Translations under genes and position numbers: made by a program
Notes under the pieces: model-generated
The model's input: only the letters and a program-made list of their open reading frames with translations
What the model was told of the DNA's origin: nothing
The model's database searches: none
Shown here: piece by piece, positions 10,656 through 24,884 of the stretch
Numbering within the stretch: position 1 is the stretch's first letter
Layout: the number at the start of each line of letters is the position of its first letter
Origin: a virus
IMG/VR virus record: IMGVR_UViG_3300037247_000349
Coordinates: 1-25,339 of that record
Reading direction: 5' to 3' (one strand)
DNA: 25,339 nt

Positions 10656-10961
10656 TTAAGATTTAGGGTCGAACTCTATATGGATGTGATCCTTCTCAAA
10701 TATAACATCATAATCAGATCCTAGGGCTTTTTTTATTTCTGAAGTAATACTTGGGATATCTTCTTTTAAGAGATGACGTGTTCTTATGTCTATCGCTAAT
10801 CCTTTATAATGCAGCGATCCAAGACTATGTTTTCTGTCATTAGCAGAGGTGATGATACAATCTTTATTATATTTTGCAAAGACATCATCAGAAGTTATTA
10901 GAGCCACTAGAATTTGTGGTTGTAGATTAGTTAGTTTCACATCATGTTTTATTTTTAACAT
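10656..10961 (-). CDS. M15-type peptidoglycan peptidase (lysin)
   Basis: A 101-aa protein with the zinc-site pattern of peptidase family M15 (VanY / D-Ala-D-Ala carboxypeptidase and phage T5-type endopeptidase): SLHYKGLAID, giving H51 and D58, and FEKDHIHIEF, giving E89 and H92/H94. Phage members cut stem peptides of peptidoglycan. It has only the catalytic domain, no wall-binding domain, signal peptide or membrane helix, and is shorter than most endolysins. It sits between the tail terminator and tail tube genes, so it could be the lysis endolysin or a virion-associated lysin. Start overlaps the preceding stop (TAATG). The holin-like gene is about 9 kb upstream. Confidence 0.82.
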   Translation of the reverse strand: MLKIKHDVKLTNLQPQILVALITSDDVFAKYNKDCIITSANDRKHSLGSLHYKGLAIDIRTRHLLKEDIPSITSEIKKALGSDYDVIFEKDHIHIEFDPKS

Positions 10962-11859: not shown

Positions 11860-11977
11860 CTCTAAATGCCTTTATTTTTTTAGTCAACCAATCCTTTATA
11901 ACCCATAAAATGGAACCAATTCCAAACAAAATAATAAGATTAGCGATGACCACAAGAATAAGTAGGAATAAATCCAT
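11843..11977 (-). CDS. 44-aa single-helix membrane peptide
   Basis: A small frame reading MDLFLLILVVIANLIILFG and continuing to WVIKDWLTKKIKAFRDGE. Residues 3-27 form one strongly hydrophobic helix; the rest is basic and amphipathic, so an N-out or N-in single-pass inner-membrane peptide is likely. Its start overlaps the head closure stop (TAATG) and its end overlaps the gp10-like start by 17 bases, the tight packing seen for real genes in this operon. It could be a small lysis or superinfection-exclusion peptide, but nothing in the sequence settles this. Confidence 0.65.
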   Translation of the reverse strand: MDLFLLILVVIANLIILFGIGSILWVIKDWLTKKIKAFRDGETS

Positions 11978-12309
11978 TAGAGTAAGACTCTACGTTCAAA
12001 GCTTGTGGCAGCTAAATCTGGAATCTTTCTGAAGTCTCTTATCTCTTTCGCGCCAGCCACCGTTAAAGGATCCGATGCTGTAGATGTACCAAGAAATAGA
12101 TAACCTTCAAGAACCACATCTTGTTTAAGATAGACACGCGAAGACGAACGAGACTCATTACCATTAGAATCAATAAATAGATTGGTCCTATCCTCCCATC
12201 TACCTAGTATAGCAACTGGGGTAATAAAAGTCTTGCCACCAAAACCATCAGGAGTACCCGGTGCCCAGTAAACGAGGTCTTGTTTGAGGTTTCTTTCAAG
12301 ATAACTCAT
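11977..12309 (-). CDS. Head closure / head-tail joining protein (HK97 gp9 / SPP1 gp16-like)
   Basis: A 110-aa protein: a short N-terminal helix, then WAPGTPDGFGGKTFITPVAILGRWEDR, with a DxxGG turn followed by a GRWED strand, and RVYLKQDVVLEGYLFLG. This is the pattern of the Phage_H_T_join family ('...D..G....W.....v.gR.e......'), which closes the head after packaging and docks the tail. It comes directly after the sugar cassette, while its usual partner, the gp6-like connector, lies before that cassette. Start at 12309 has no strong Shine-Dalgarno and sits two bases after the upstream stop, suggesting coupling. Confidence 0.85.
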   Translation of the reverse strand: MSYLERNLKQDLVYWAPGTPDGFGGKTFITPVAILGRWEDRTNLFIDSNGNESRSSSRVYLKQDVVLEGYLFLGTSTASDPLTVAGAKEIRDFRKIPDLAATSFERRVLL

Positions 12310-12311
12310 AA

Positions 12312-13415
12312 TTAATAGTTATTCAATATTTCGATGATTTTTCTATTAAAGTTTAGAAACACATTCCTGAGATATTCTCTTTTAGCATCCATTTTTAATT
12401 CTGGGAAATGTCTATCTAGATTACATAGCACATCTAAGAGGCCTTGGCAATCATTCTTTATACATGGAGCACTTATTTGTTGAGCAAAGAATTGGTTCTT
12501 TATATGATCTCCAAATGCTATCGTACGAGTACCTTGACCGAATGGTATTATATTAGCATGACCACGCATTCCAATCACAATATCCATTCTTCTATAGATA
12601 CCAGCTAAGAATGGCACATTTATCAATGTTTCTGGGTAGAGCCAGGGAACCCCAGTCGCTAAATCATAAAAGATGTCACCTAGGTATTCTTTAAAGACCC
12701 ACGCAATTTTATGGTCATATTTAGATACATGAGGAATCATCACCACCTTAACTTGCTTATATTGTCTTGAAAAACGTAGCAAATTGTTACAAAGTTCTTT
12801 AATCACCTTTGATTTATCTTTATTAGGAAACCTTTGATCTTCTCTATCTCCAGCCCAATTAAGACCAATACAAAAATCATCAGGTTCGATACCTGGTAAT
12901 GCAATTTTAATTGAATCACAGAACATCGCTGCATCAGGAATCACAGAAACTTCAACGATACCTAATTTCTCTAATTCAGTTCTAGTTCCTTTATCTCTAA
13001 CTGAGAATAGGGTTGATTTCTTTTTGGTGGCCTTTATATGATTTATTGTGTCTTCTGAGAATTCAGGATCGCCTTCAAACCTATTATATCCGATACCATA
13101 AATAATTAGAGGTATCTTTAGTTCTGATAATGTTGATAACTCAATGTTGAACTGCCATCCAGATACTGTATCGAACCCATCCCCTTTCATCAATAGTCCG
13201 CCGCCACCAACTATGAATAAGCTTCCAACTTCATTCATATATCTAATCTGTGCAGAATTAATTGGGGTCTCTAATTTAAAGTCAATCGGTATCGATCTTA
13301 TAGGATGGACCGACATCTTATGAAGAATATTAGTGATACTCTCATATAGAGCTAAATCACCATAATTACGACTAAGGCTACTGTAATGAAATACTGTTTT
13401 GTGGTCCATTTGCAT
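12312..13415 (-). CDS. Polysaccharide pyruvyl transferase family protein
   Basis: A 367-aa protein of the PS_pyruv_trans family (WcaK/CsaB-like), which adds ketal-linked pyruvate to sugars in surface polysaccharides. Markers are the N-terminal SLSRNYGDLALYESI, VGGGGLLMKG, PLIIYGIGYNRFEG, a SVRDKGTRTELEKLG block with VIPDAAMFC, and the C-terminal IGMRGHANIIPFGQG, which is the family's 'GxRxHxxxxA' signature with the conserved Arg and His. Start at 13415 overlaps the NeuA-like gene by 38 bases; ATG at 13409 is also possible, AAAGG lies just upstream of both. Family members differ in donor and acceptor, so the exact reaction is not known. Confidence 0.85.
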   Translation of the reverse strand: MQMDHKTVFHYSSLSRNYGDLALYESITNILHKMSVHPIRSIPIDFKLETPINSAQIRYMNEVGSLFIVGGGGLLMKGDGFDTVSGWQFNIELSTLSELKIPLIIYGIGYNRFEGDPEFSEDTINHIKATKKKSTLFSVRDKGTRTELEKLGIVEVSVIPDAAMFCDSIKIALPGIEPDDFCIGLNWAGDREDQRFPNKDKSKVIKELCNNLLRFSRQYKQVKVVMIPHVSKYDHKIAWVFKEYLGDIFYDLATGVPWLYPETLINVPFLAGIYRRMDIVIGMRGHANIIPFGQGTRTIAFGDHIKNQFFAQQISAPCIKNDCQGLLDVLCNLDRHFPELKMDAKREYLRNVFLNFNRKIIEILNNY

Positions 13416-14100
13416 TTACCTTTCTTGTCATTAATTGCACCAACAATCTAGCTACTGCTAAATCTTCGACCTCGTTGATATCAATAGAACTAATCAATGA
13501 CATATAGAAAGGTTGAGCACCGGGAATATGAAAACTCTTATATTTTTCTAGGGTTTCTGGAGAAGCTATGAACATAGCTCCATTAACATGAAATACTGGA
13601 TCTGAATCCTGTCGTTGTACATTAAGAGGAGTATCTTCAACTGGAATTAAAAATCCACCTTTCACCCATCTTAGACTTGGCATTCTAAGTGAAATAGAAG
13701 ATACTCCAATTACGCTTTCTGCTCCATTCTCGAATATTTCTAAAGCATTATCTATCATTTCTGGAGTTCTGAAAGGACTGGTAGGCAATAACATTAAGAA
13801 GGCATCAGGTAATTCCTCACCTAAACTTTTCAAGAAATCTATAACATGGAGTATGACATTTACTGCATTAACTGTTCCATCTTTCATAGGAGATGGCTGA
13901 CTTATAACTTCAACATTAAATCTTGAGGCTACTTTTGATACTTCAGTATCATCAGTGCTTACGATTATTCTATCGATTTCAGAGAATTTAGCAGCATTTA
14001 ATGTCCAGGCTATTAGAGGTTCACCTCCTAAATCAACTATGTTCTTACGTGGTATTCCCTTACTACCTCCTCTTGCAGGAATCACAGCACAGGTTCTCAT
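13378..14100 (-). CDS. neuA: CMP-nonulosonate (acylneuraminate) cytidylyltransferase
   Basis: A 240-aa nucleotidyltransferase that activates a sialic-acid-like sugar with CTP. The hallmark MRTCAVIPARGGSKGIPRKN is at the N-terminus, followed by LGGEPLIAWTLNAA, IIVSTDDTEVSKVA, LLPTSPFR, FHVNGAMFIA and the C-terminal ISSIDINEVEDL, all conserved in CMP-NeuAc, CMP-legionaminate and CMP-pseudaminate synthetases. Length is normal for the catalytic domain. I chose ATG at 14100 since the signature begins there and AAAGGG lies nine bases upstream; the frame also has an ATG at 14127. Sugar specificity cannot be read from sequence. Works downstream of the NeuB-like gene of the same cassette. Confidence 0.92.
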   Translation of the reverse strand: MRTCAVIPARGGSKGIPRKNIVDLGGEPLIAWTLNAAKFSEIDRIIVSTDDTEVSKVASRFNVEVISQPSPMKDGTVNAVNVILHVIDFLKSLGEELPDAFLMLLPTSPFRTPEMIDNALEIFENGAESVIGVSSISLRMPSLRWVKGGFLIPVEDTPLNVQRQDSDPVFHVNGAMFIASPETLEKYKSFHIPGAQPFYMSLISSIDINEVEDLAVARLLVQLMTRKVNANGPQNSISLQ

Positions 14101-14113
14101 TTCAGATACCCTT

Positions 14114-14920
14114 TTAACTAGTAGCATTTGCCCACAAAGTATCTGTCATGTCAATCTTCTGTAGTACGTTTTCAAGAGCATTATCTAAAGAAGCATCATT
14201 TAGATAATGATAGATTTTATCACCATCAGGTAAACCATCAAGTAACCATCCAATCTGATTTCCTAAAGAATATCTTTGTATCCCCTCTACTATAACATTT
14301 TCAAACCCTGCCAGTTCTATGAATTTTGTGAGAGTTTCTCTCGTATGAAGTATCAAATGATCAGACCAGAACGTAAAGTTCTTAAATTCAAGGTTATCTA
14401 GGACTTCAATTAAGAAATTCTTAGCATGTGGTACTTCTATAAATATTGTTCCTCCTTGTTTCATCTTCACTTTTATCTCTCTTAAGGTTTCGATTGGTTC
14501 CTCAAAATGCTCAAATGTGTGCATTAAAGTCACAACATCATACTTATTTGGTGCTAATCTGTCTATTGATCTAATGTCAGCAGGAAAAGTTATGTCAGGT
14601 TCTACTGTAGTACACCGTGACACGTATCTAAGCGCCGTAGACAAGCCTTTAGATCCTGAACCTATGTCTGCCCACTTCTTACTCGCTACTATTGATCGGA
14701 GCTTATCTGCGCGTCGTTGGTTATCCTTTGATTCAGCAGATTGCCATTCAGTCAGTCTATTGTAATAGGCCACACCACTTTTTTCTATCTTATCTAGAAA
14801 TAATATACCTGTTTTAGAACACTTCATGACATTGATGGTAGAATTATCTCTCGTACCTTTATGAAAGATTTTGACATCTTCAGGATCTACTAAACCATTC
14901 GTATATAAATAAGGAATCAT
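14114..14920 (-). CDS. SAM-dependent methyltransferase
   Basis: A 268-aa class I methyltransferase. An N-terminal segment with VMKCSKTGILFLD resembles that of sugar-modifying methyltransferases; the SAM site is visible as WADIGSGSKG (motif I), VEPD (end of strand 2), YDVVTLMHTFEHFEEP (motif around strand 4) and KQGGTIFIEVPH (strand 5). In this context the likely substrate is a nucleotide sugar or glycan, but that is inferred. ATG at 14920 is preferred, with GGAA just upstream and two bases after the preceding stop; a GTG at 14980 in the same frame has no ribosome site and would overlap the membrane protein gene by 59 bases. Confidence 0.88.
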   Translation of the reverse strand: MIPYLYTNGLVDPEDVKIFHKGTRDNSTINVMKCSKTGILFLDKIEKSGVAYYNRLTEWQSAESKDNQRRADKLRSIVASKKWADIGSGSKGLSTALRYVSRCTTVEPDITFPADIRSIDRLAPNKYDVVTLMHTFEHFEEPIETLREIKVKMKQGGTIFIEVPHAKNFLIEVLDNLEFKNFTFWSDHLILHTRETLTKFIELAGFENVIVEGIQRYSLGNQIGWLLDGLPDGDKIYHYLNDASLDNALENVLQKIDMTDTLWANATS

Positions 14921-14921
14921 G

Positions 14922-15173
14922 TCATTTCCGTTTTGCTTGACGAGCAATCCTTTTGAAACGCCATTCAAATAACCAGTCACTTTTTATGAATGAAATCGTA
15001 GCCATCAATAGACCTCCACCTATCATAACCCCCATGACCATGATCCAGCTATACATCTGAGAAGAAATGTAAACGACCAGACCTATGAACGACCAAAGAA
15101 GAATAAAACAAACCAATCTAATAAAAGAATTATTAGAATTTAGACCTTTGATCAGAGGTATTATAGGTATCAT
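14922..15173 (-). CDS. 83-aa two-helix membrane protein
   Basis: Two hydrophobic helices at residues about 18-37 and 42-62, separated by a short turn, followed by a very basic C-terminal tail (KRIARQAKRK). I do not recognise the family. The layout resembles small class II holins as well as small membrane anchors of glycan-modification cassettes. It is packed between the 31-aa SLOG-like frame and the methyltransferase (stop two bases before the methyltransferase ATG). No clear Shine-Dalgarno precedes the start at 15173, so translation may be coupled to the upstream mini-gene. Confidence 0.72.
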   Translation of the reverse strand: MIPIIPLIKGLNSNNSFIRLVCFILLWSFIGLVVYISSQMYSWIMVMGVMIGGGLLMATISFIKSDWLFEWRFKRIARQAKRK

Positions 15174-15179
15174 TTTAAT

Positions 15180-15275
15180 TTATTCAAAGAGCGGTTCACA
15201 AATTGCTAAACCTGCTCTTTTAGCCTGGTATTTCATATCTGCTGTTCCTTTTCCACCTGGAAATACAATAACCAT
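15180..15275 (-). CDS. 31-aa SLOG / DUF2493-like mini-gene
   Basis: A very short frame with a strong AGGAG six to ten bases upstream, reading MVIVFPGGKGTADMKYQAKR and ending in CEPLFE. FPGGKGTADM followed by a basic helix is the signature of the DUF2493 (YspA-like) branch of the SLOG superfamily, where the GG.GT loop binds a nucleotide-derived ligand and is found near the C-terminus of a protein of about 100 residues or more. Only this end is present, so this is either a remnant or a small peptide kept for another role. The intact ribosome site and tight packing with both neighbours argue for expression. Confidence 0.6.
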   Translation of the reverse strand: MVIVFPGGKGTADMKYQAKRAGLAICEPLFE

Positions 15276-15284
15276 ATCTATCTC

Positions 15285-16136
15285 CTAAAGTGTTGTTTTC
15301 TTTCTTAATCTAGGTATTTCAGCATATTCAGATTCTGCGATTTCTAATTTACCGTCACCCATTGCTTCTTCAACGAGTCTAATATCTCGACAGAGTTTTT
15401 GGAATCCTTGGACATCTAGAGAAGCTGCTTGGTCGTTACCCCAATCTGATTTACTTAGAGTAATATGTCTTTCTACCGAGACAGCTCCCAATACCACAGC
15501 GGCAACAGTAGTTGCCATTCCTATCTCATGTCCTGAATACCCTATTGGAGTCCCCGAGTACGAATATTGCAACATGGTAATAGCTTTAAGATTAATGTCT
15601 TTTGGAGAAGTAGGATACGTAGAAATGCAATGATAAAGACAAGCGACTTTACCACTATGCCATCGAACTTCTTTTACCGCTTTATCAATTATATTCTGAT
15701 CTGACATCCCTGTTGAGATCAACAAAGGACGTTTGTAGGCACAACAACTTAATAGTTCTCTATTGGTGATGCATCCTGAGGCTATTTTTAAGTAAGGGAT
15801 ATCATATCTACATAAGAAATCAGCTGAACCTTCATCCCATGGAGATGCATACCAATCAAGGTTGAGTTCTTTACAGACATGATCTATTCTATCGTATTCT
15901 TCTTTACCAAATTCAAGTCCGTGTTTTAGTTCACCATATGTGGTACCATATGGACTTTTACGTTTGGTTGCTAATTCCTCTCTGGTATAAACCTTATCAA
16001 CTGTACGTTTTTGGAATTTAACTGCATCAGCACCAGCCCAATGTGCTCCTTTAATAAGTTCTAACGCTTTATCGTAGGAACCAGAATGGTTGATACCAAT
16101 TTCTGCGACTATATAACATCTATCTTCTTGTATCAT
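15285..16136 (-). CDS. neuB: NeuB-type nonulosonate (sialic acid family) synthase
   Basis: A 283-aa TIM-barrel synthase that condenses phosphoenolpyruvate with an N-acetylated hexosamine to make sialic, legionaminic or pseudaminic-type sugars. Family blocks are in order: YIVAEIGINHSGSYDKA, AVKFQKRTVDKVYT, YASPWDEGSADFL, LKIASG, LLISTGMSD, LYHCISTYPTS, GYSGHEIG and VERHITLSKSDWGNDQAASL. It ends after the barrel and lacks the C-terminal SAF (antifreeze-like) domain of longer NeuB proteins; such short forms are known. ATG at 16136 is preceded by GGAGG, which fixes the start; the frame extends further upstream without a ribosome site. First gene of the cassette, starting 12 bases after the gp6-like gene ends. 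Confidence 0.92.
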   Translation of the reverse strand: MIQEDRCYIVAEIGINHSGSYDKALELIKGAHWAGADAVKFQKRTVDKVYTREELATKRKSPYGTTYGELKHGLEFGKEEYDRIDHVCKELNLDWYASPWDEGSADFLCRYDIPYLKIASGCITNRELLSCCAYKRPLLISTGMSDQNIIDKAVKEVRWHSGKVACLYHCISTYPTSPKDINLKAITMLQYSYSGTPIGYSGHEIGMATTVAAVVLGAVSVERHITLSKSDWGNDQAASLDVQGFQKLCRDIRLVEEAMGDGKLEIAESEYAEIPRLRKKTTL

Positions 16137-16147
16137 CTTTATACCTC

Positions 16148-16816
16148 CTAATAAATATCTGCGCGCTTCCACCTATCTAGTATTGAAAGTGAAGATGGTG
16201 GAATGCCTACCGTTCCTTGCTGTGATTCAAATAGTGTTTCGTTTGAATCACCTGTTCTTTGACTCTTTACATTAGGATCAAAAGACTTACGAAGATACCA
16301 AGACTTGACTATATCAACACAAGCTCTTTCTACATCATACGGTAATGTTCTATCACCTTGAGTTGAACCTGGTGTAATATAACCTGATACATAGATTATA
16401 TTCCAATCAAGTCTCCCAAATCTAGTCGGAGTTCTTTCAATATCAAGGATATAAAGTGTTGTAGAAGTCCAACCATCTTCTTTAAATAGAACTCCAGCAT
16501 CAGAATCTTGTATTACATATTTAGTAGATGATATGGTTGACGACGCTGTAGAAGTTCTTAAAGCTACTGAAGTGATGGATACAACTGGTGTACGTTCAAG
16601 AAGAAGCGATGGTGATCCTCTTGATGCTAATGTCTCGGTTATGTTTTCTCGTGCAAATTTGCGTCCAGTATATTGAGTAATAAAATCAGAAGCTTGTTGA
16701 ATATAGTCCCAGATAAGTTTGTCATCAGTGTTGGAGGTAATGGCTAATTCACGCTTAACTAATTCAAGCGTGGTAAGTTTATTCGTGGGAGCAGCAGATG
16801 TTACTGTAACTGTCAT
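16148..16816 (-). CDS. Head-tail connector (HK97 gp6-like)
   Basis: A 222-aa connector of the gp6-like (Phage_connect / GTA g6) family, which forms the adaptor ring under the portal. The N-terminal part has LTTLELVKRELAI, DDKLIWDYIQQASDFITQYTGR, then ITETLASRGSPSLLLERTPV with VVSITSV, the usual order of helices and strands; a helix with VERACVDIVKSWY closes the domain. It is longer than the minimal gp6 because of a beta-rich middle. Start overlaps the upstream stop (ATGA). Its normal partner, head closure, is displaced about 3.8 kb downstream by the sugar cassette. Confidence 0.87.
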   Translation of the reverse strand: MTVTVTSAAPTNKLTTLELVKRELAITSNTDDKLIWDYIQQASDFITQYTGRKFARENITETLASRGSPSLLLERTPVVSITSVALRTSTASSTISSTKYVIQDSDAGVLFKEDGWTSTTLYILDIERTPTRFGRLDWNIIYVSGYITPGSTQGDRTLPYDVERACVDIVKSWYLRKSFDPNVKSQRTGDSNETLFESQQGTVGIPPSSLSILDRWKRADIY

Positions 16817-17327: not shown

Positions 17328-18662
17328 TTAACTGATCTCACGCCAAGTTAACGACCCTTCCACGGTCGCCGCCGACACACCGCCGATTGGACGCACGGCT
17401 AGAACGATGGTGTCCAATGTGGTCCCGTCGATGGCAACGCCGAGCATTAAGGCGTTATCAAGTTCACCGCCACCGGACCCCTGCGCACTCTGTCCGCCCC
17501 CCGTCTCGACGTACCCTCCTCCGATCTGGGTGCCACCCGTAACCGTGTTTGCGGTTGCCCCGAGGACCGTCTGCATGGCGCTGTTCGTGAGATCGCCATA
17601 AGTGAACGTGCCCGCCACGGTGGGGTTGAAAAGTAGAACCCATTCCAGAAACTCGCTCGCCGTATGCACTTGAATCGCCGCCGTGAGCATCTTGACCGTG
17701 GTGCTGACATGAGTTGATTTAAGTCGGACTCCCACAACAGCAAAAAGCAAATTCTCCGTGTCAGTAGTGACCCCGGCCCCTGCCGTCGAACGATACCGGA
17801 CTATACCAATATCGTCCGTGCCTCCCTCGGAAGTAACCGCCGAGCAGATGCAACGCATGGAGCACACGCCAGAATCCGTCGTCGTGATAATCTGGTAACG
17901 TAAAGGCAGATTGGGAGTCGAAGCCCACGGGATCGTAGCCGTATTTGCTTGAACGACCTGGTGAATGTAATGTAGGTGCCCACCAAGTTCGACACCAAAC
18001 CTCACGCGCCCGACCGACAGCCACTGGAAATCTATAACGAAAATCTGAGCCTTGGTCCAGTCGACGGTATCTCCGCTCGGGTTAGCAGAATCATCGTCGC
18101 CATCCATAGTATCAAGATTCCAATTAGCCTGTGTGACCGTAGCATCCACCGGAGAACCGGAATCGTTGGTCCGCACCGTCACGCCGATGGTGCCGGCATC
18201 GCTCTCAAAGAAGGCACCGTTGTTATCGTCGAAATAGCCGATGAGCCTCTCACACCCGGTCTTCACGCCGCTGGCGAGTTCCAACACCCCAGTCATCTGA
18301 ATGAGTTGAGATTTGCCGGGTTGGTAATTGAACCGGCGGAACGTTTGGCGGGTGCGTTGTCCGGCCGTTACATTCGTACTAGTAAAATCGATATACGGCT
18401 TGGCGGCAGTCGGCGTCGTGGTCGCCATCGTGCCGGAATCGAGTTGTTCGTCCCAGAACAAGGGTGCGCTATCCAGGTTGAGCAACTTGGTATCGAATAA
18501 TGTCGTCGGATTGCTGACACGCCACCGATGGAAGGCATCGACGGACGGGCTGCTAAGTTCCGACTCAATAACGACATTCTGGAACTTTACGCCACCTCGA
18601 TCATCGGAGGCATAAACGTCACCAGTGCCTGGAAGAGTTGAATTATCGACCATTAGCCCCAT
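17328..18662 (-). CDS. GC-rich virion structural protein of unknown function
   Basis: A beta-rich protein of 444 aa (441 if ATG at 18653 is used). It contains VDAFHRWRVSNPTTLFDTKL near the N-terminus, repeated aromatic/Gly strands, GVELGGHLHYIHQV and LRYQIITTTDSG in the middle, and a Gly-rich C-terminal part with GGGYVETGGGQSAQGSGGG. The pattern 'RWRVSxPxTLFDxKxxxD' is one I recall from phage virion proteins without assigned function. No signal or membrane segment. Base composition is far above the neighbours (42/60 G+C at 17461-17520), with sharp edges near the stop and near 18715, so it was probably acquired as a single-gene unit. The second ATG overlaps the stop of a 27-codon frame (TAATG), which favours the shorter form. 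Confidence 0.75.
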   Translation of the reverse strand: MGLMVDNSTLPGTGDVYASDDRGGVKFQNVVIESELSSPSVDAFHRWRVSNPTTLFDTKLLNLDSAPLFWDEQLDSGTMATTTPTAAKPYIDFTSTNVTAGQRTRQTFRRFNYQPGKSQLIQMTGVLELASGVKTGCERLIGYFDDNNGAFFESDAGTIGVTVRTNDSGSPVDATVTQANWNLDTMDGDDDSANPSGDTVDWTKAQIFVIDFQWLSVGRVRFGVELGGHLHYIHQVVQANTATIPWASTPNLPLRYQIITTTDSGVCSMRCICSAVTSEGGTDDIGIVRYRSTAGAGVTTDTENLLFAVVGVRLKSTHVSTTVKMLTAAIQVHTASEFLEWVLLFNPTVAGTFTYGDLTNSAMQTVLGATANTVTGGTQIGGGYVETGGGQSAQGSGGGELDNALMLGVAIDGTTLDTIVLAVRPIGGVSAATVEGSLTWREIS

Positions 18663-18736: not shown

Positions 18737-19000
18737 TTATTTCGTGATATAACCAGAATTACCATCACGTTCTGCTATTACATCTTTGAGCTGTGCTCTT
18801 TCTCTAATCGGTCTCTTTTCTTCTTCCTTACTTTCTTTTACATCTTCTACAGGTTCTACAGGAGTATTCTGAGTATCTGGAGCAGCAACAGCTATAGCCA
18901 CCTTACGAGAAACCAACAAATCAGCCATTTTGTCATCAAAGCCAGCGATTTCACCTTCACGATAAGGAGCATTACTTAAGATAAATTTAACTAGTTTCAT
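18737..19000 (-). CDS. Small head-associated protein with acidic tail
   Basis: An 87-aa protein, MKLVKFILSNAPYREGEIAG and then FDDKMADLLVSRKVAIAV, followed by a charged low-complexity tail with VEDVKESKEEEKRPIRERAQ. The first 45 residues resemble a small SH3-like domain often found near phage capsid genes ('..f....Y..Ge.AgF....a..L...g.A'). The role is not established. I prefer ATG at 19000; a GTG at 19012 in the same frame is possible, and neither has a strong Shine-Dalgarno. It overlaps the end of the GT-like gene, so coupling is likely. Confidence 0.7.
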   Translation of the reverse strand: MKLVKFILSNAPYREGEIAGFDDKMADLLVSRKVAIAVAAPDTQNTPVEPVEDVKESKEEEKRPIRERAQLKDVIAERDGNSGYITK

Positions 19001-19796
19001 TAGATTTCTCACTTTCTTCTTTAATCAAATTAGGGTTGGATCTTCCTTTAGACCCAGGCTTATAAGAAAATCCGCGTTCTTTATGCGTTAATATCTCTAA
19101 AATCTGTCTAGATTCTTGTCGTGCACCATCAGAAGTGTAGAATTCCGCCATAGCTTTCTGCCACTTATTATCGTATTCCTTTATTCTTTCTTTCATCATA
19201 TCTGTAGTAATGATACCTTCAAGTGGTGGAAGTTCATATCCATATCTATGACTAAAGGTACAAAGAGCAGCGTTGGAGGGTATATAAACCTGTTTACCTA
19301 GACCTCTAGCAACTCCTACTAGATATTCAGTATTGGGACGCTGATACGAGTATTCACCATCTGTGATTAAATCAATTCCATATATATGTATCTCTTCAAA
19401 ATCATCTATGATTGCCAATCCTAACATGAATGCTATAGATGAAGCAAAATAATCTCCACTTGAATATGGATCTAAACTCTTACCTAAAGCTTCAATTACC
19501 TGTTCTATAGGATATCTAATGGTATTTCTAACATTAGCTATCTTCTCTTGAGTGAATACTGGCTTTTTAAGATCTGATAGCCATTTTAAATAATTAGGTG
19601 GGACATTTATCCTACCAGGACCCATCTTATGCATGTCAAAGTAGACATCGCACCTTTGTAGTTTCCGCCAAGCTAAACCCCAAATCTCTACATTAGGATC
19701 ATCCCAAGGAGTTTCATCTAAAGTGGAGGAAGCAGAACCAACAATCGCAACAATCTTAGGTCTTATCTTGTTAGGCTTACTTACCTTTTTTACCAT
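18987..19796 (-). CDS. Rossmann-like protein, possible GT42-type glycosyltransferase
   Basis: A 269-aa protein. KIVAIVGSASSTLDETPW (from residue 14) is followed by VEIWGLAWRKL and CDVYFDMHKMG; later come YSSGDYFASSIAFMLGLAI (111-129), EEIHIYGIDLITDG (134-147) and YQRPNTEYLVGVARG. The order 'IvGsgpSl...vei.g.n......sSg..a...A..lg..eI.iyGiD' parallels the GT42 sialyltransferases (CstI/CstII) and the related DUF115/MptE fold. Proteins of this type are frequent in phage genomes without assigned function. The nearby NeuB/NeuA cassette makes a CMP-sugar transferase role attractive but unproven. ATG at 19796 has AGGAG nine bases upstream, fixing the start. The C-terminal 70 residues are charged and helical. 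Confidence 0.6.
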   Translation of the reverse strand: MVKKVSKPNKIRPKIVAIVGSASSTLDETPWDDPNVEIWGLAWRKLQRCDVYFDMHKMGPGRINVPPNYLKWLSDLKKPVFTQEKIANVRNTIRYPIEQVIEALGKSLDPYSSGDYFASSIAFMLGLAIIDDFEEIHIYGIDLITDGEYSYQRPNTEYLVGVARGLGKQVYIPSNAALCTFSHRYGYELPPLEGIITTDMMKERIKEYDNKWQKAMAEFYTSDGARQESRQILEILTHKERGFSYKPGSKGRSNPNLIKEESEKSNETS

Positions 19797-20145
19797 CTGT
19801 ATATCTCCTGATGCCACTGTCATCTCTATCTTCTGAACAGACTATCTTTTCAACAGTCTTACCCTGATCATTACAGATATAAACCAGGGTTGAAAAGACA
19901 ACCATATAGGGTTTCGCAAGTTTCGTGAAGTTCATGATGCAAACTTTTAGAGGGTTAGCATCATTTATCTTATCTCGATCTATTCCAGGTAAGACAAAAG
20001 TTACCTGAGTAAAACCATCATCAGGCACAAGATAATTCAATTCACTATTAGAGACAAATGTTACTGGAGTGGTATCATATTTGATAAGTTCTGCATTATC
20101 AAACATTACCCATCTATTACCACTATCTTTGACTTTAATAATCAT
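19777..20145 (-). CDS. Hypothetical 122-aa protein
   Basis: No family recognised. The protein is beta-rich and soluble: MIIKVKDSGNRWVMFDNAEL, a PVTFVSNSELNYLV stretch, FTQVTFVLPGIDRDKI, then PYMVVFSTLVYICNDQGKTV and a basic end RRYTDGKKGK. It starts with a strong GGAGATA leader nearly identical to that of the 31-aa SLOG-like gene at 15275. It lies between the holin-like gene and the GT-like gene and overlaps the latter by 20 bases. Could be an accessory (moron) protein rather than a virion part. Confidence 0.7.
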   Translation of the reverse strand: MIIKVKDSGNRWVMFDNAELIKYDTTPVTFVSNSELNYLVPDDGFTQVTFVLPGIDRDKINDANPLKVCIMNFTKLAKPYMVVFSTLVYICNDQGKTVEKIVCSEDRDDSGIRRYTDGKKGK

Positions 20146-23131: not shown

Positions 23132-23617
23132 TTAGTCAGCAGGTAGAGTATCACTACCACCAAACACAAGGATACCAGCGTAATCTAATGTATTGGTAGC
23201 GGTAGAGGTCATAGATGGAGTGACTTGGATTCTAATATACCGTTTTGCGGTAGATATATCAAGGTCGTACTCCAGCTCACTTACAGTAGTAAACGCTGCT
23301 GTGGAATCAGTAGCACCTAAAGTAAGAGTGTTGACTGTGCTTCCGTCTTTATCATCAAAATCAGCGAAAGCAGTAGATACGGTTGTTGCACTATCCTGGG
23401 CATTAGAAATAACAGTACCTTCAACACCAGTTGTAAGGTTAGGGTATACAGGGATAATTACCTTAGCACTAAAGTAAAGTTCCCCAAGACCTAACCTGTC
23501 GATAACGGTACCATTAACCTGAGTACCATCAGTACCCGCACCAGCGGTAACGATGACAGGGTTGAGGCAAGCTTCGCCTTTGATGAGTGCCCCGATATCA
23601 TGAGATCTAAACGTCAT
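23132..23617 (-). CDS. Probable head decoration / capsid-associated protein
   Basis: A 161-aa beta-rich protein directly after the major capsid gene, the usual place for a decoration protein. It reads MTFRSHDIGALIKGEACLNP, then LGELYFSAKVIIPVYPNL, GTVISNAQDSATTV, and a C-terminal LDYAGILVFGGSDTLPAD. No catalytic motif, signal or membrane helix. AGAGGTGA lies nine bases before the start, a strong ribosome site fitting high expression, and two hairpins follow the stop. The sequence is compatible with a jelly-roll-like capsid-bound protein, but the family was not recognised by name. Confidence 0.65.
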   Translation of the reverse strand: MTFRSHDIGALIKGEACLNPVIVTAGAGTDGTQVNGTVIDRLGLGELYFSAKVIIPVYPNLTTGVEGTVISNAQDSATTVSTAFADFDDKDGSTVNTLTLGATDSTAAFTTVSELEYDLDISTAKRYIRIQVTPSMTSTATNTLDYAGILVFGGSDTLPAD

Positions 23618-23639: not shown

Positions 23640-24884
23640 TTAGGCGCCCCAGGTAACATTACTAATTAACGCGACACTTTCCTCATGGCGCATTGCAAAG
23701 TCATGCCTGGAGATGGCTCTCACCAATGTTTCGTCTCGCGCGAACGCAGACACAAGAGTACTACCGTCGAGATAAGAAGCAGACGAATCCACCTGAATCT
23801 CAAGAGTAGAAGCTTCACCGATAATCGCATCAATCATATCGACGAAGTAAACCTCAGTCTCGGTCCCAGCACCCAGGTTACGAGGAATGTTTGTGCTGAC
23901 GAACACAGGCCACCCATAAAGCATTGGTGACGGACCTCTGATCTCTGGGAAGATCAAGTTACCATTTGCATCACGTAGGTTGAACAAATGGTTCTTCGAA
24001 CGTGGATGCATAAACCACACAGGTCTAAGCAACCTAACATCGTTATTTTCAAGGGCGTTAATAAGAACCTTGAAATCAGTCTCGATGTTCGTTGCAGTAG
24101 TACCAGCAGATGTGAGGATATTAGCAGCGAGTGCCCAGTTACGAATACCCTTAGGAGTCTCAGACAATCCATTATCACGCAAGAAAGCCTGGTCTTCTCT
24201 AGTAGCGATACTAGCTACCAAGTCATCACGGATGAACTCATCAGCATTTGGTCCAGACGTGAAACTAAGAAGTTCGTTACTGACAGGGACGATAGCGGCG
24301 AGCTTCTTCGCCGTCAAGCGAATCTGACCACCAGCTGGTTCTGTACTGGTGATAGCAACACTTTCACCAACATACGAAGTACCAGCAGTCGCAGTCTGCT
24401 TTCTAATGGTCAGCGATCCTGTAGGCATTGGAAGAATTCTAGGATTCGCTGCACGGACAATCGAGAAGGCTCTAAGTAGTTCAATAATCTCGGGGATAAA
24501 ATCCTCGGGGATCATAAAACCACCGGCGGTGAAATCACCAGCCTGCATAACCTTATTAAAATCAAGCTTGTCTGCAATTTTGTCACCGAGATCATCATTC
24601 CAAGCCTTCTTAGCGAAGAACTTAGCTTTTTCGAGATCACCCTGACCAAAAGCAAGAGCACGGACAAAACGAGCGGCACCAATACCCTTATTAGGGGAAG
24701 CGGTATCACGCACCTTTTGTTTTTCGGCAGCAGTCGCAGCCTGTTGGATCTGATCCATCCAGTTAGTCTGCTGCTTCTTCAGAGGCTCAAGGGCTTCTAC
24801 AACTTGGTCTTGAACCACGTCGCGAATCATGTCCTTGAGTTCGTCCTTGGTAAGAGTCTTCTTCTTACCTTCTTCACTATCCAT
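23640..24884 (-). CDS. Major capsid protein (HK97 fold)
   Basis: A 414-aa capsid protein. Residues about 12-60 are a charged coiled coil (the delta/scaffold domain of HK97-type capsids), followed by a linker and the shell domain with GGFMIPEDFIPEIIELLRAFS (from 121), PTGSLTIRK, SYVGESVAITSTEP, VPVSNELL, REDQAFLRDNG, a WFMHPRSKNHLFNLRDANG loop, PMLYGWPVFVSTNIP, and a C-terminal LVRAISRHDFAMRHEESVALI. These are the classical blocks of the phage major capsid family. The delta domain is probably cut off by a protease encoded outside the window. AGGA lies nine bases before the start. Codons are more selective and GC-richer than the tape measure, as expected for an abundant protein. Confidence 0.97.
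   Translation of the reverse strand: MDSEEGKKKTLTKDELKDMIRDVVQDQVVEALEPLKKQQTNWMDQIQQAATAAEKQKVRDTASPNKGIGAARFVRALAFGQGDLEKAKFFAKKAWNDDLGDKIADKLDFNKVMQAGDFTAGGFMIPEDFIPEIIELLRAFSIVRAANPRILPMPTGSLTIRKQTATAGTSYVGESVAITSTEPAGGQIRLTAKKLAAIVPVSNELLSFTSGPNADEFIRDDLVASIATREDQAFLRDNGLSETPKGIRNWALAANILTSAGTTATNIETDFKVLINALENNDVRLLRPVWFMHPRSKNHLFNLRDANGNLIFPEIRGPSPMLYGWPVFVSTNIPRNLGAGTETEVYFVDMIDAIIGEASTLEIQVDSSASYLDGSTLVSAFARDETLVRAISRHDFAMRHEESVALISNVTWGA

Follow-up and report, generated by a model that had tools for sequence, protein, structure and literature searches.

A predicted CMP-nonulosonate cassette in the head-tail operon of a tailed phage and its possible use in virion glycosylation

Results

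A sugar-acid cassette between the connector and head-closure genes

The 25,339-base virus record IMGVR_UViG_3300037247_000349 from IMG/VR (the whole stretch analysed, hereafter the window) carries its structural genes on the minus strand throughout, in the order capsid, g30, fibre-like genes, g25, a virion structural protein, small proteins, gp6 connector, a cassette of sugar genes, head closure, neck, terminator, tail tube, tape measure and tail. The cassette consists of genes for NeuB, a 31-codon open reading frame (ORF), a small membrane protein, a methyltransferase, NeuA and a pyruvyltransferase, and all the genes named in an initial annotation made from the sequence alone were recovered in place and on the minus strand, with support from Pfam and PHROGs. 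It is flanked upstream by a gp6-like head-tail connector (16148..16816, minus strand; phrog_442, head-tail adaptor, 2.6e-28; PF05135 Phage_connect_1, 8.5e-9) and downstream by a head-closure gene (11977..12309, minus strand; phrog_797), which has homologues in the same place in three other phage contigs (L056, L092 and L099) and a homologue in Brevundimonas phage StAshley. The PHROGs assignments downstream of the cassette are Neck1 and head-tail connector/terminator.

Neighbouring cassette genes overlap or are separated by gaps of about 1-12 nt. NeuB starts at ATG 16136, preceded by AGGAGG, and for the methyltransferase the most likely start is ATG 14920, not GTG 14980. Compared with shuffled sequences, neither promoter-like sites (21 observed, 21.1 expected) nor terminator-like sites (3 observed, 3.9 expected) rise above background, which is consistent with the annotated lack of an internal promoter or terminator; this is an absence of signal and does not prove late expression. 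The cassette has the same GC content (0.35-0.38) as gp6 and g25, so its composition does not mark it as foreign among the genes next to it; the GC content is higher in the structural protein gene at 17328-18662 and in the fibre and capsid genes.

Enzymes of the cassette

NeuB (15285..16136, minus strand) is a 283-aa sugar-acid synthase of the NeuB family with a TIM barrel and no SAF (antifreeze) domain (Pfam NeuB, 1.1e-68; PF03102, 231.7 bits against a cut-off of 22.1). Using a HMMER alignment to the Neisseria meningitidis enzyme (1xuu), we matched its residues E12, K40, Q42, K117, S120, H203, E222, H224 and D235 to E25, K53, Q55, K129, S132, H215, E234, H236 and D247, which we take to be the catalytic and metal residues of meningococcal NeuB. 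With its last residue at 283, the protein stops short of the SAF region, and it does not qualify as a canonical NnaB/PseI synthase, scoring below the equivalog cut-offs of TIGR03569 (220 of 399.65 bits) and TIGR03586 (PseI, 180 of 340.25), with both matches likewise ending before that region. The short form is universal among the viral homologues found (54/54, at 245-287 aa), and the nearest solved protein of this length in the PDB is 6ncs, a 290-residue Leptospira synthetase chain. In N. meningitidis NeuB the antifreeze domain of the partner subunit contributes substrate-binding residues (PMC7591256); the Caulobacter NeuB also has this domain, whereas that of the window does not. NeuB genes without SAF are common in large marine viral contigs (L002-L055), where there are often several per contig, in glycan islands with divergent NeuA genes.

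The NeuA/PseF-like CMP-nonulosonate synthetase (13378..14127, minus strand) matches Pfam CTP_transf_3 (1.8e-20) and a CMP-NeuAc synthetase in the PDB (E 1.7e-31). It has the ARGGSKGIPRKN motif and a C-terminal DID-type metal motif whose second Asp is replaced by Asn, as it is in the Roseibium and L048 relatives; its score against the PseF equivalog (108.8 bits) lies below the cut-off. A loss of catalytic residues in NeuB or NeuA, which the initial annotation had named as fatal to its proposal, is not what we find, these residues being intact. The last gene (12312..13415, minus strand) encodes a PS_pyruv_trans family protein (polysaccharide pyruvyltransferase-like; PF04230, 1.4e-23, 84.6 bits against 25.3), in which R137, R281-x-H283 and K303 are kept across aligned relatives. 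It falls short of the CsaB equivalog (36.5 of 213.1), and pyruvyltransferase is a family assignment with predicted activity. The class I S-adenosylmethionine methyltransferase (14114..14920, minus strand; Methyltransf_23, 8.1e-14) is homologous to those of L092 and of the bacterial clusters described below. PDB look-ups for these two proteins found no informative relative. We consider it likely that the cassette makes a CMP-nonulosonate.

Two small genes complete the cassette. The 31-codon ORF (15180..15275, minus strand) had been annotated as a SLOG-like mini-gene; the likeness holds, confined to the C-terminus of YspA/DUF2493-type SLOG proteins, but the ORF by itself scores in no Pfam family and is a probable remnant. 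We rejected it as a functional SLOG protein, since it is too short and not conserved; a full-length SLOG copy (PF10686) is present elsewhere in L056. The 83-aa protein with two hydrophobic stretches (14922..15173, minus strand) belongs to no family and was not seen in the sister cassettes.

The same insertion in divergent phages

A search of related phages for the same insertion, suggested with the initial annotation, recovered it in three divergent contigs, all of which share NeuB, NeuA and pyruvyltransferase with the window. In the 106-kb contig L056, found with the pyruvyltransferase as query, the order is gp6, NeuB, KdsC-type phosphatase, NeuA, pyruvyltransferase, LCM-type methyltransferase and head closure. 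Alignment queries found the other two: L099 shows gp6, NeuB, NeuA, pyruvyltransferase, LCM methyltransferase and the start of head closure, and L092 shows NeuB, methyltransferase, an unknown gene, NeuA, pyruvyltransferase and head closure, with the gp6 side past the contig end. The unknown gene (L092:1731-2477), which lies between methyltransferase and NeuA, encodes 248 aa, looks oxygenase-like by eye and has no Pfam family.

Identities to the window are 47-48% for gp6, 55-62% for head closure and 48-55% for NeuB, and the three core enzymes retain their motifs in all four site phages at 34-55% identity, those of NeuA and pyruvyltransferase being intact. Because the insertion recurs in L056, L092 and L099, it is not a matter of chance. 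The cassette lies inside the virion operon in all four, not outside it as would have told against the initial annotation. Insertion-free sites are seen in StAshley, where a true homologue of the head-closure gene (hidden Markov model E 5.4e-20) abuts the gene in connector position, and in L101, where gp6 directly abuts the next gene; both agree with the claim that connector and head closure normally sit side by side. Single-query scans for close relatives with gp6 and NeuA gave no matches, and a capsid alignment scan recovered L056 as the sole relative.

The four site phages group together in the NeuA tree (support 93/90) and in the pyruvyltransferase tree (90/95), revealing a shared origin of these two genes. 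They also group in the NeuB tree (100/100), with a Roseibium copy nested inside, and strict monophyly of the phage NeuB was rejected on this ground. Given these topologies, an ancestor of the four phages probably already had the cassette, with NeuB later exchanged with bacteria and tailoring genes swapped.

Homologous clusters in Stappiaceae

We scanned a collection of 84,980 species, with one genome per species, for the pyruvyltransferase and matched three contigs. Within the family of Roseibium limicola (Stappiaceae) 5/87 genomes matched, against 1/385 in a class-wide sample. The five Stappiaceae clusters have NeuB, methyltransferase, NeuA and pyruvyltransferase in common with the window, the window-type methyltransferase lying on the opposite strand, and add a TPR protein of ~620 aa; L188 has a NeuB fragment where the contig ends, and L191 a different SAF-less NeuB. 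Pfam shows only TPRs in the added protein; we read its C-terminal half as resembling a GT-B transferase, like that of FlmG. One of the clusters, in L190, is a few kb away from flgI, flgH and flgA. FlmG itself combines TPRs with a GT-B part and transfers pseudaminic acid to flagellins within the cytoplasm (PMC7591256). Because the Stappiaceae clusters are FlmG-like and one stands beside flagellar genes, protein O-glycosylation is by analogy the best guide to the use of the phage cassette, its closest cellular parallel being cytoplasmic flagellin glycosylation rather than capsule or lipopolysaccharide (LPS).

The likely sugar

In agreement with the initial annotation, which noted that NeuC-type and epimerase/dehydratase steps are absent, we found no Epimerase_2, DegT or SDR epimerase in the window, nor in the L056 or L099 records, although these are partial contigs and absence is not proven. 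Epimerase_2 (NeuC/WecB-type) is also lacking in 4/5 of the bacterial genomes with the cluster, whose completeness is not stated; this is stronger evidence than that from the partial phage contigs. The same absence presumably also removes the NeuC-like step of legionaminate synthesis. The phosphatase beside NeuB in L056 matches KdsC and the Bacteroides enzyme 3e81, presumably a Kdn-9-P phosphatase, and the bacterium L191 has a phosphatase 43% identical to it, also adjoining NeuB. NeuC is not needed on the Kdn-9-P route of Bacteroides and Prymnesium, which consists of Kdn-9-P synthase, phosphatase and CMP-Kdn synthetase (PMC6200933); the window itself, in contrast, shows no phosphatase. From the SAF-less NeuB clade, the L056 phosphatase, the epimerases not found in the phages and the four bacteria without Epimerase_2, a Kdn-type or other non-NeuC substrate is favoured over a NeuC-dependent sialic acid, and pseudaminate would also be possible. 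The annotated claim that the phage takes a host hexosamine is on the same grounds doubtful.

A candidate transferase in the head operon

The transfer step, which the initial annotation had left unplaced, has a candidate in the same operon. The gene g25 (18990..19823, minus strand) lies downstream of the major capsid gene and comes after capsid and g30 in relatives too; its AlphaFold model (pLDDT 84) has a fold like that of GT42 sialyltransferases and MptE, making it a candidate CMP-nonulosonate glycosyltransferase. CstII is the best Foldseek match (E 7.8e-4), and in VIA-align ten GT42 sialyltransferases (CstII/Cst-I) stand on top with Z 9.4-10.1 over 145-157 residues, mammalian sialyltransferases lying further down at Z about 7-7.6. 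A profile of 43 g25 homologues retrieved one PDB chain, a CMP-Neu5Ac sialyltransferase, at a weak E of 0.76. Residues H65, S128 and E157 of g25 are invariant. The homologue in L104, modelled separately, matches CstII at E 4.7e-5, and its N-terminal domain matches CstII, Cst-I, a Pasteurella sialyltransferase and the Maf flagellin glycosyltransferase 5mu5 (Z 9.8) at Z 9.6-10.2, the rows with higher Z being long-helix matches. In L103 and L104 the order is capsid, g30, g25, NeuA and gp6, with g25 and NeuA overlapping by 4 nt.

Another homologue, in Microcystis phage Mvi-Yong1342-1 (L087:5905-6708), lies directly before the terminase and is annotated as a type 11 methyltransferase, a label that is probably an error in view of the fold predicted for the g25 family.

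Sugar genes beside virion genes in other phages

Immediately upstream of its head operon, L056 carries two FkbM methyltransferases, a sulfotransferase, a GT9-like gene and a weakly DUF6716-like gene. The structural protein of the window (17328-18662), whose gene has a GC content of 0.56 among neighbours at 0.37, is 85% identical in nucleotides and 93% in amino acids to a gene (L198:514-1839) of G003, an otherwise unrelated phage contig; it may have been exchanged recently with the G003 lineage and is a possible glycan acceptor. The scan with this protein mostly retrieved phages that share that gene alone and says little on the cassette, G003 excepted. Just upstream of its portal gene, G003 (L198:10440-14678) has two MptE/GT42-looking ORFs without a Pfam match, a radical SAM/SPASM protein, a PglD-like acyltransferase and NeuA; we read this NeuA as running into a truncated NeuC-like N-terminus, with the portal as the gene downstream. 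In a further contig, G489 (L199:1674-6700), a NeuB-like gene lies near the terminase with genes for a class III aminotransferase and an SpsF-like cytidylyltransferase; the contig also has an SDR gene and a g25 after the capsid gene. Sugar-acid genes beside virion genes thus recur. In a search of 50,697 deposited phage records at 1e-5, neither the NeuA nor the pyruvyltransferase of the window had a match in a true phage, and the lone NeuA match, a Moritella viscosa record, was rejected as a bacterial capsule contig.

Apart from these genes, a small protein at 10656-10961 of the window, between the tail terminator and tail tube genes, shows an M15 peptidase-like pattern (HSLGSLHYKGLAIDIR ... HIHIEFD) with weak Pfam matches.

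Discussion

The initial annotation proposed that a CMP-activated sugar is made late in infection, from a host hexosamine, for glycosylation of virions or masking of the host surface. A CMP-nonulosonate pathway with intact residues in a virion operon bears out much of this, but the hexosamine is doubtful. In the route that we propose, NeuB would join phosphoenolpyruvate to a host hexose or hexose phosphate, giving a nonulosonate that is more likely of Kdn type, formed from mannose-6-phosphate and dephosphorylated by the host or, in L056, by the KdsC-type phosphatase of the phage. NeuA would convert it to the CMP-sugar, the methyltransferase and the pyruvyltransferase-family enzyme would modify the sugar before or after transfer, and g25, a sialyltransferase/Maf-like protein of the same head operon, would transfer it to Ser/Thr of a structural protein. 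Candidate acceptors are the capsid protein (gene at 23640-24884), g30 (23132-23617), the structural protein at 17328-18662 and the tail tube proteins. Because the position is kept and a sialyltransferase-fold gene lies in the operon, use on the virion is the best single reading, and we give about even credence to late CMP-nonulosonate synthesis for the cytoplasmic O-glycosylation of virion structural proteins.

Several observations weigh against this reading. The window and most of its relatives are contig fragments. g25 sits 3 kb from the cassette, has no Pfam family and matches no sequence family above threshold, and its predicted fold is also near MptE-type HPPK (Z 9.2, tied) and thiamine pyrophosphokinase (8.7). 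That g25 is always accompanied by sugar genes was rejected, NeuA missing in 10/14 of the g25-bearing phage records searched; in such phages g25-like proteins may draw on CMP-sugars of the host or have another function. By tblastn, neither the window nor the sister contigs, which are partial, yielded a homologue of the Stappiaceae TPR proteins, so an FlmG-type system was not recovered. Finally, the same enzymes would be accounted for by use on the host surface.

In that last case host enzymes, such as FlmG-type flagellin or LPS/capsule transferases, would use the CMP-sugar during infection and alter flagella or envelope, which would keep other phages, or released progeny, from attaching to the dying host. 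The closest cellular homologues accompany an FlmG-type TPR protein, with flagellar genes nearby in one genome, and a host transferase of this kind could serve phages that lack their own; the cassette also includes a membrane protein, and NeuB of large marine viral contigs sits in broad glycan islands. We regard host-surface remodelling as the main alternative, though less likely than use on the virion: the position in the head-tail operon is maintained in four divergent phages, a sialyltransferase-fold protein lies in the same operon and is linked to NeuA in L104, we saw neither a flippase nor a polymerase in the window, and a change of the host surface would bring small benefit if expression is late.

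It is improbable that the cassette is moron-like cargo, acquired a single time as a bacterial glycosylation cluster and co-transcribed with the connector genes but without a specific role in the particle, useful for example only to a lysogen. The mixing of phage and Roseibium copies in the NeuB tree implies that genes moved between phage and bacteria, tailoring genes vary between phages, and the SLOG remnant speaks for gene turnover at the site. But the core motifs kept across the four phages at 34-55% identity imply long-standing selection, an essential virion operon is a poor location for lysogen-only expression, and the window shows neither an integrase nor a repressor. That the sugar modifies DNA or another phage component is very improbable, even though phage glycosyltransferases that hypermodify DNA exist, as cited in PMC12619734: we recognised no gene for the synthesis of modified bases in either the window or the sister contig, and we know of no precedent for the use of a CMP-sugar on DNA.

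Among known systems, the cassette is most like the FlmG/NeuB system of Caulobacter, where NeuB and a CMP-nonulosonate synthetase feed a cytoplasmic protein O-glycosyltransferase that modifies flagellin (PMC7591256). Unlike FlmG systems, the phage has no TPR transferase, the candidate being instead the GT42/Maf-like protein of the head operon, for which the sequence match to Maf and GT42 enzymes is not significant and the MptE/HPPK fold is equally close. Phage glycosyltransferases that modify the capsid or tail-tube protein are known in mycobacteriophages Che8 and Rita (Freeman et al. 2023, as cited in PMC11256854); those reports concern transferases, whereas the window also encodes synthesis and activation of the sugar acid. 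Giant viruses likewise encode glycosylation machinery, according to a review (PMC9614988), but they are eukaryotic viruses with other sugars. Our literature search, in which few subscription papers were reachable, found no paper on a phage that makes and activates a nonulosonate for its own particles and no direct precedent for phage nonulosonate synthesis, SAF-less NeuB or 'norphogenetic' proteins.

The surfaces of bacteria, archaea and vertebrates are known to carry nonulosonates. We tentatively propose that a lineage of tailed phages, probably with alphaproteobacterial hosts, may make a Kdn-like, methylated and pyruvylated CMP-nonulosonate in its head-tail operon and coat virion proteins by its own sialyltransferase/Maf-like enzyme, a phage-autonomous virion sialylation related to flagellin-glycosylation clusters. 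Among marine viruses, the SAF-less NeuB enzymes form a broad clade that is uncharacterised. Were virions to bear the sugar, its negative charge would coat them and influence their adsorption, stability and recognition, virion glycosylation would be tied to the flagellin-glycosylation machinery of the likely hosts, and self-sialylation by a phage would be directly testable.

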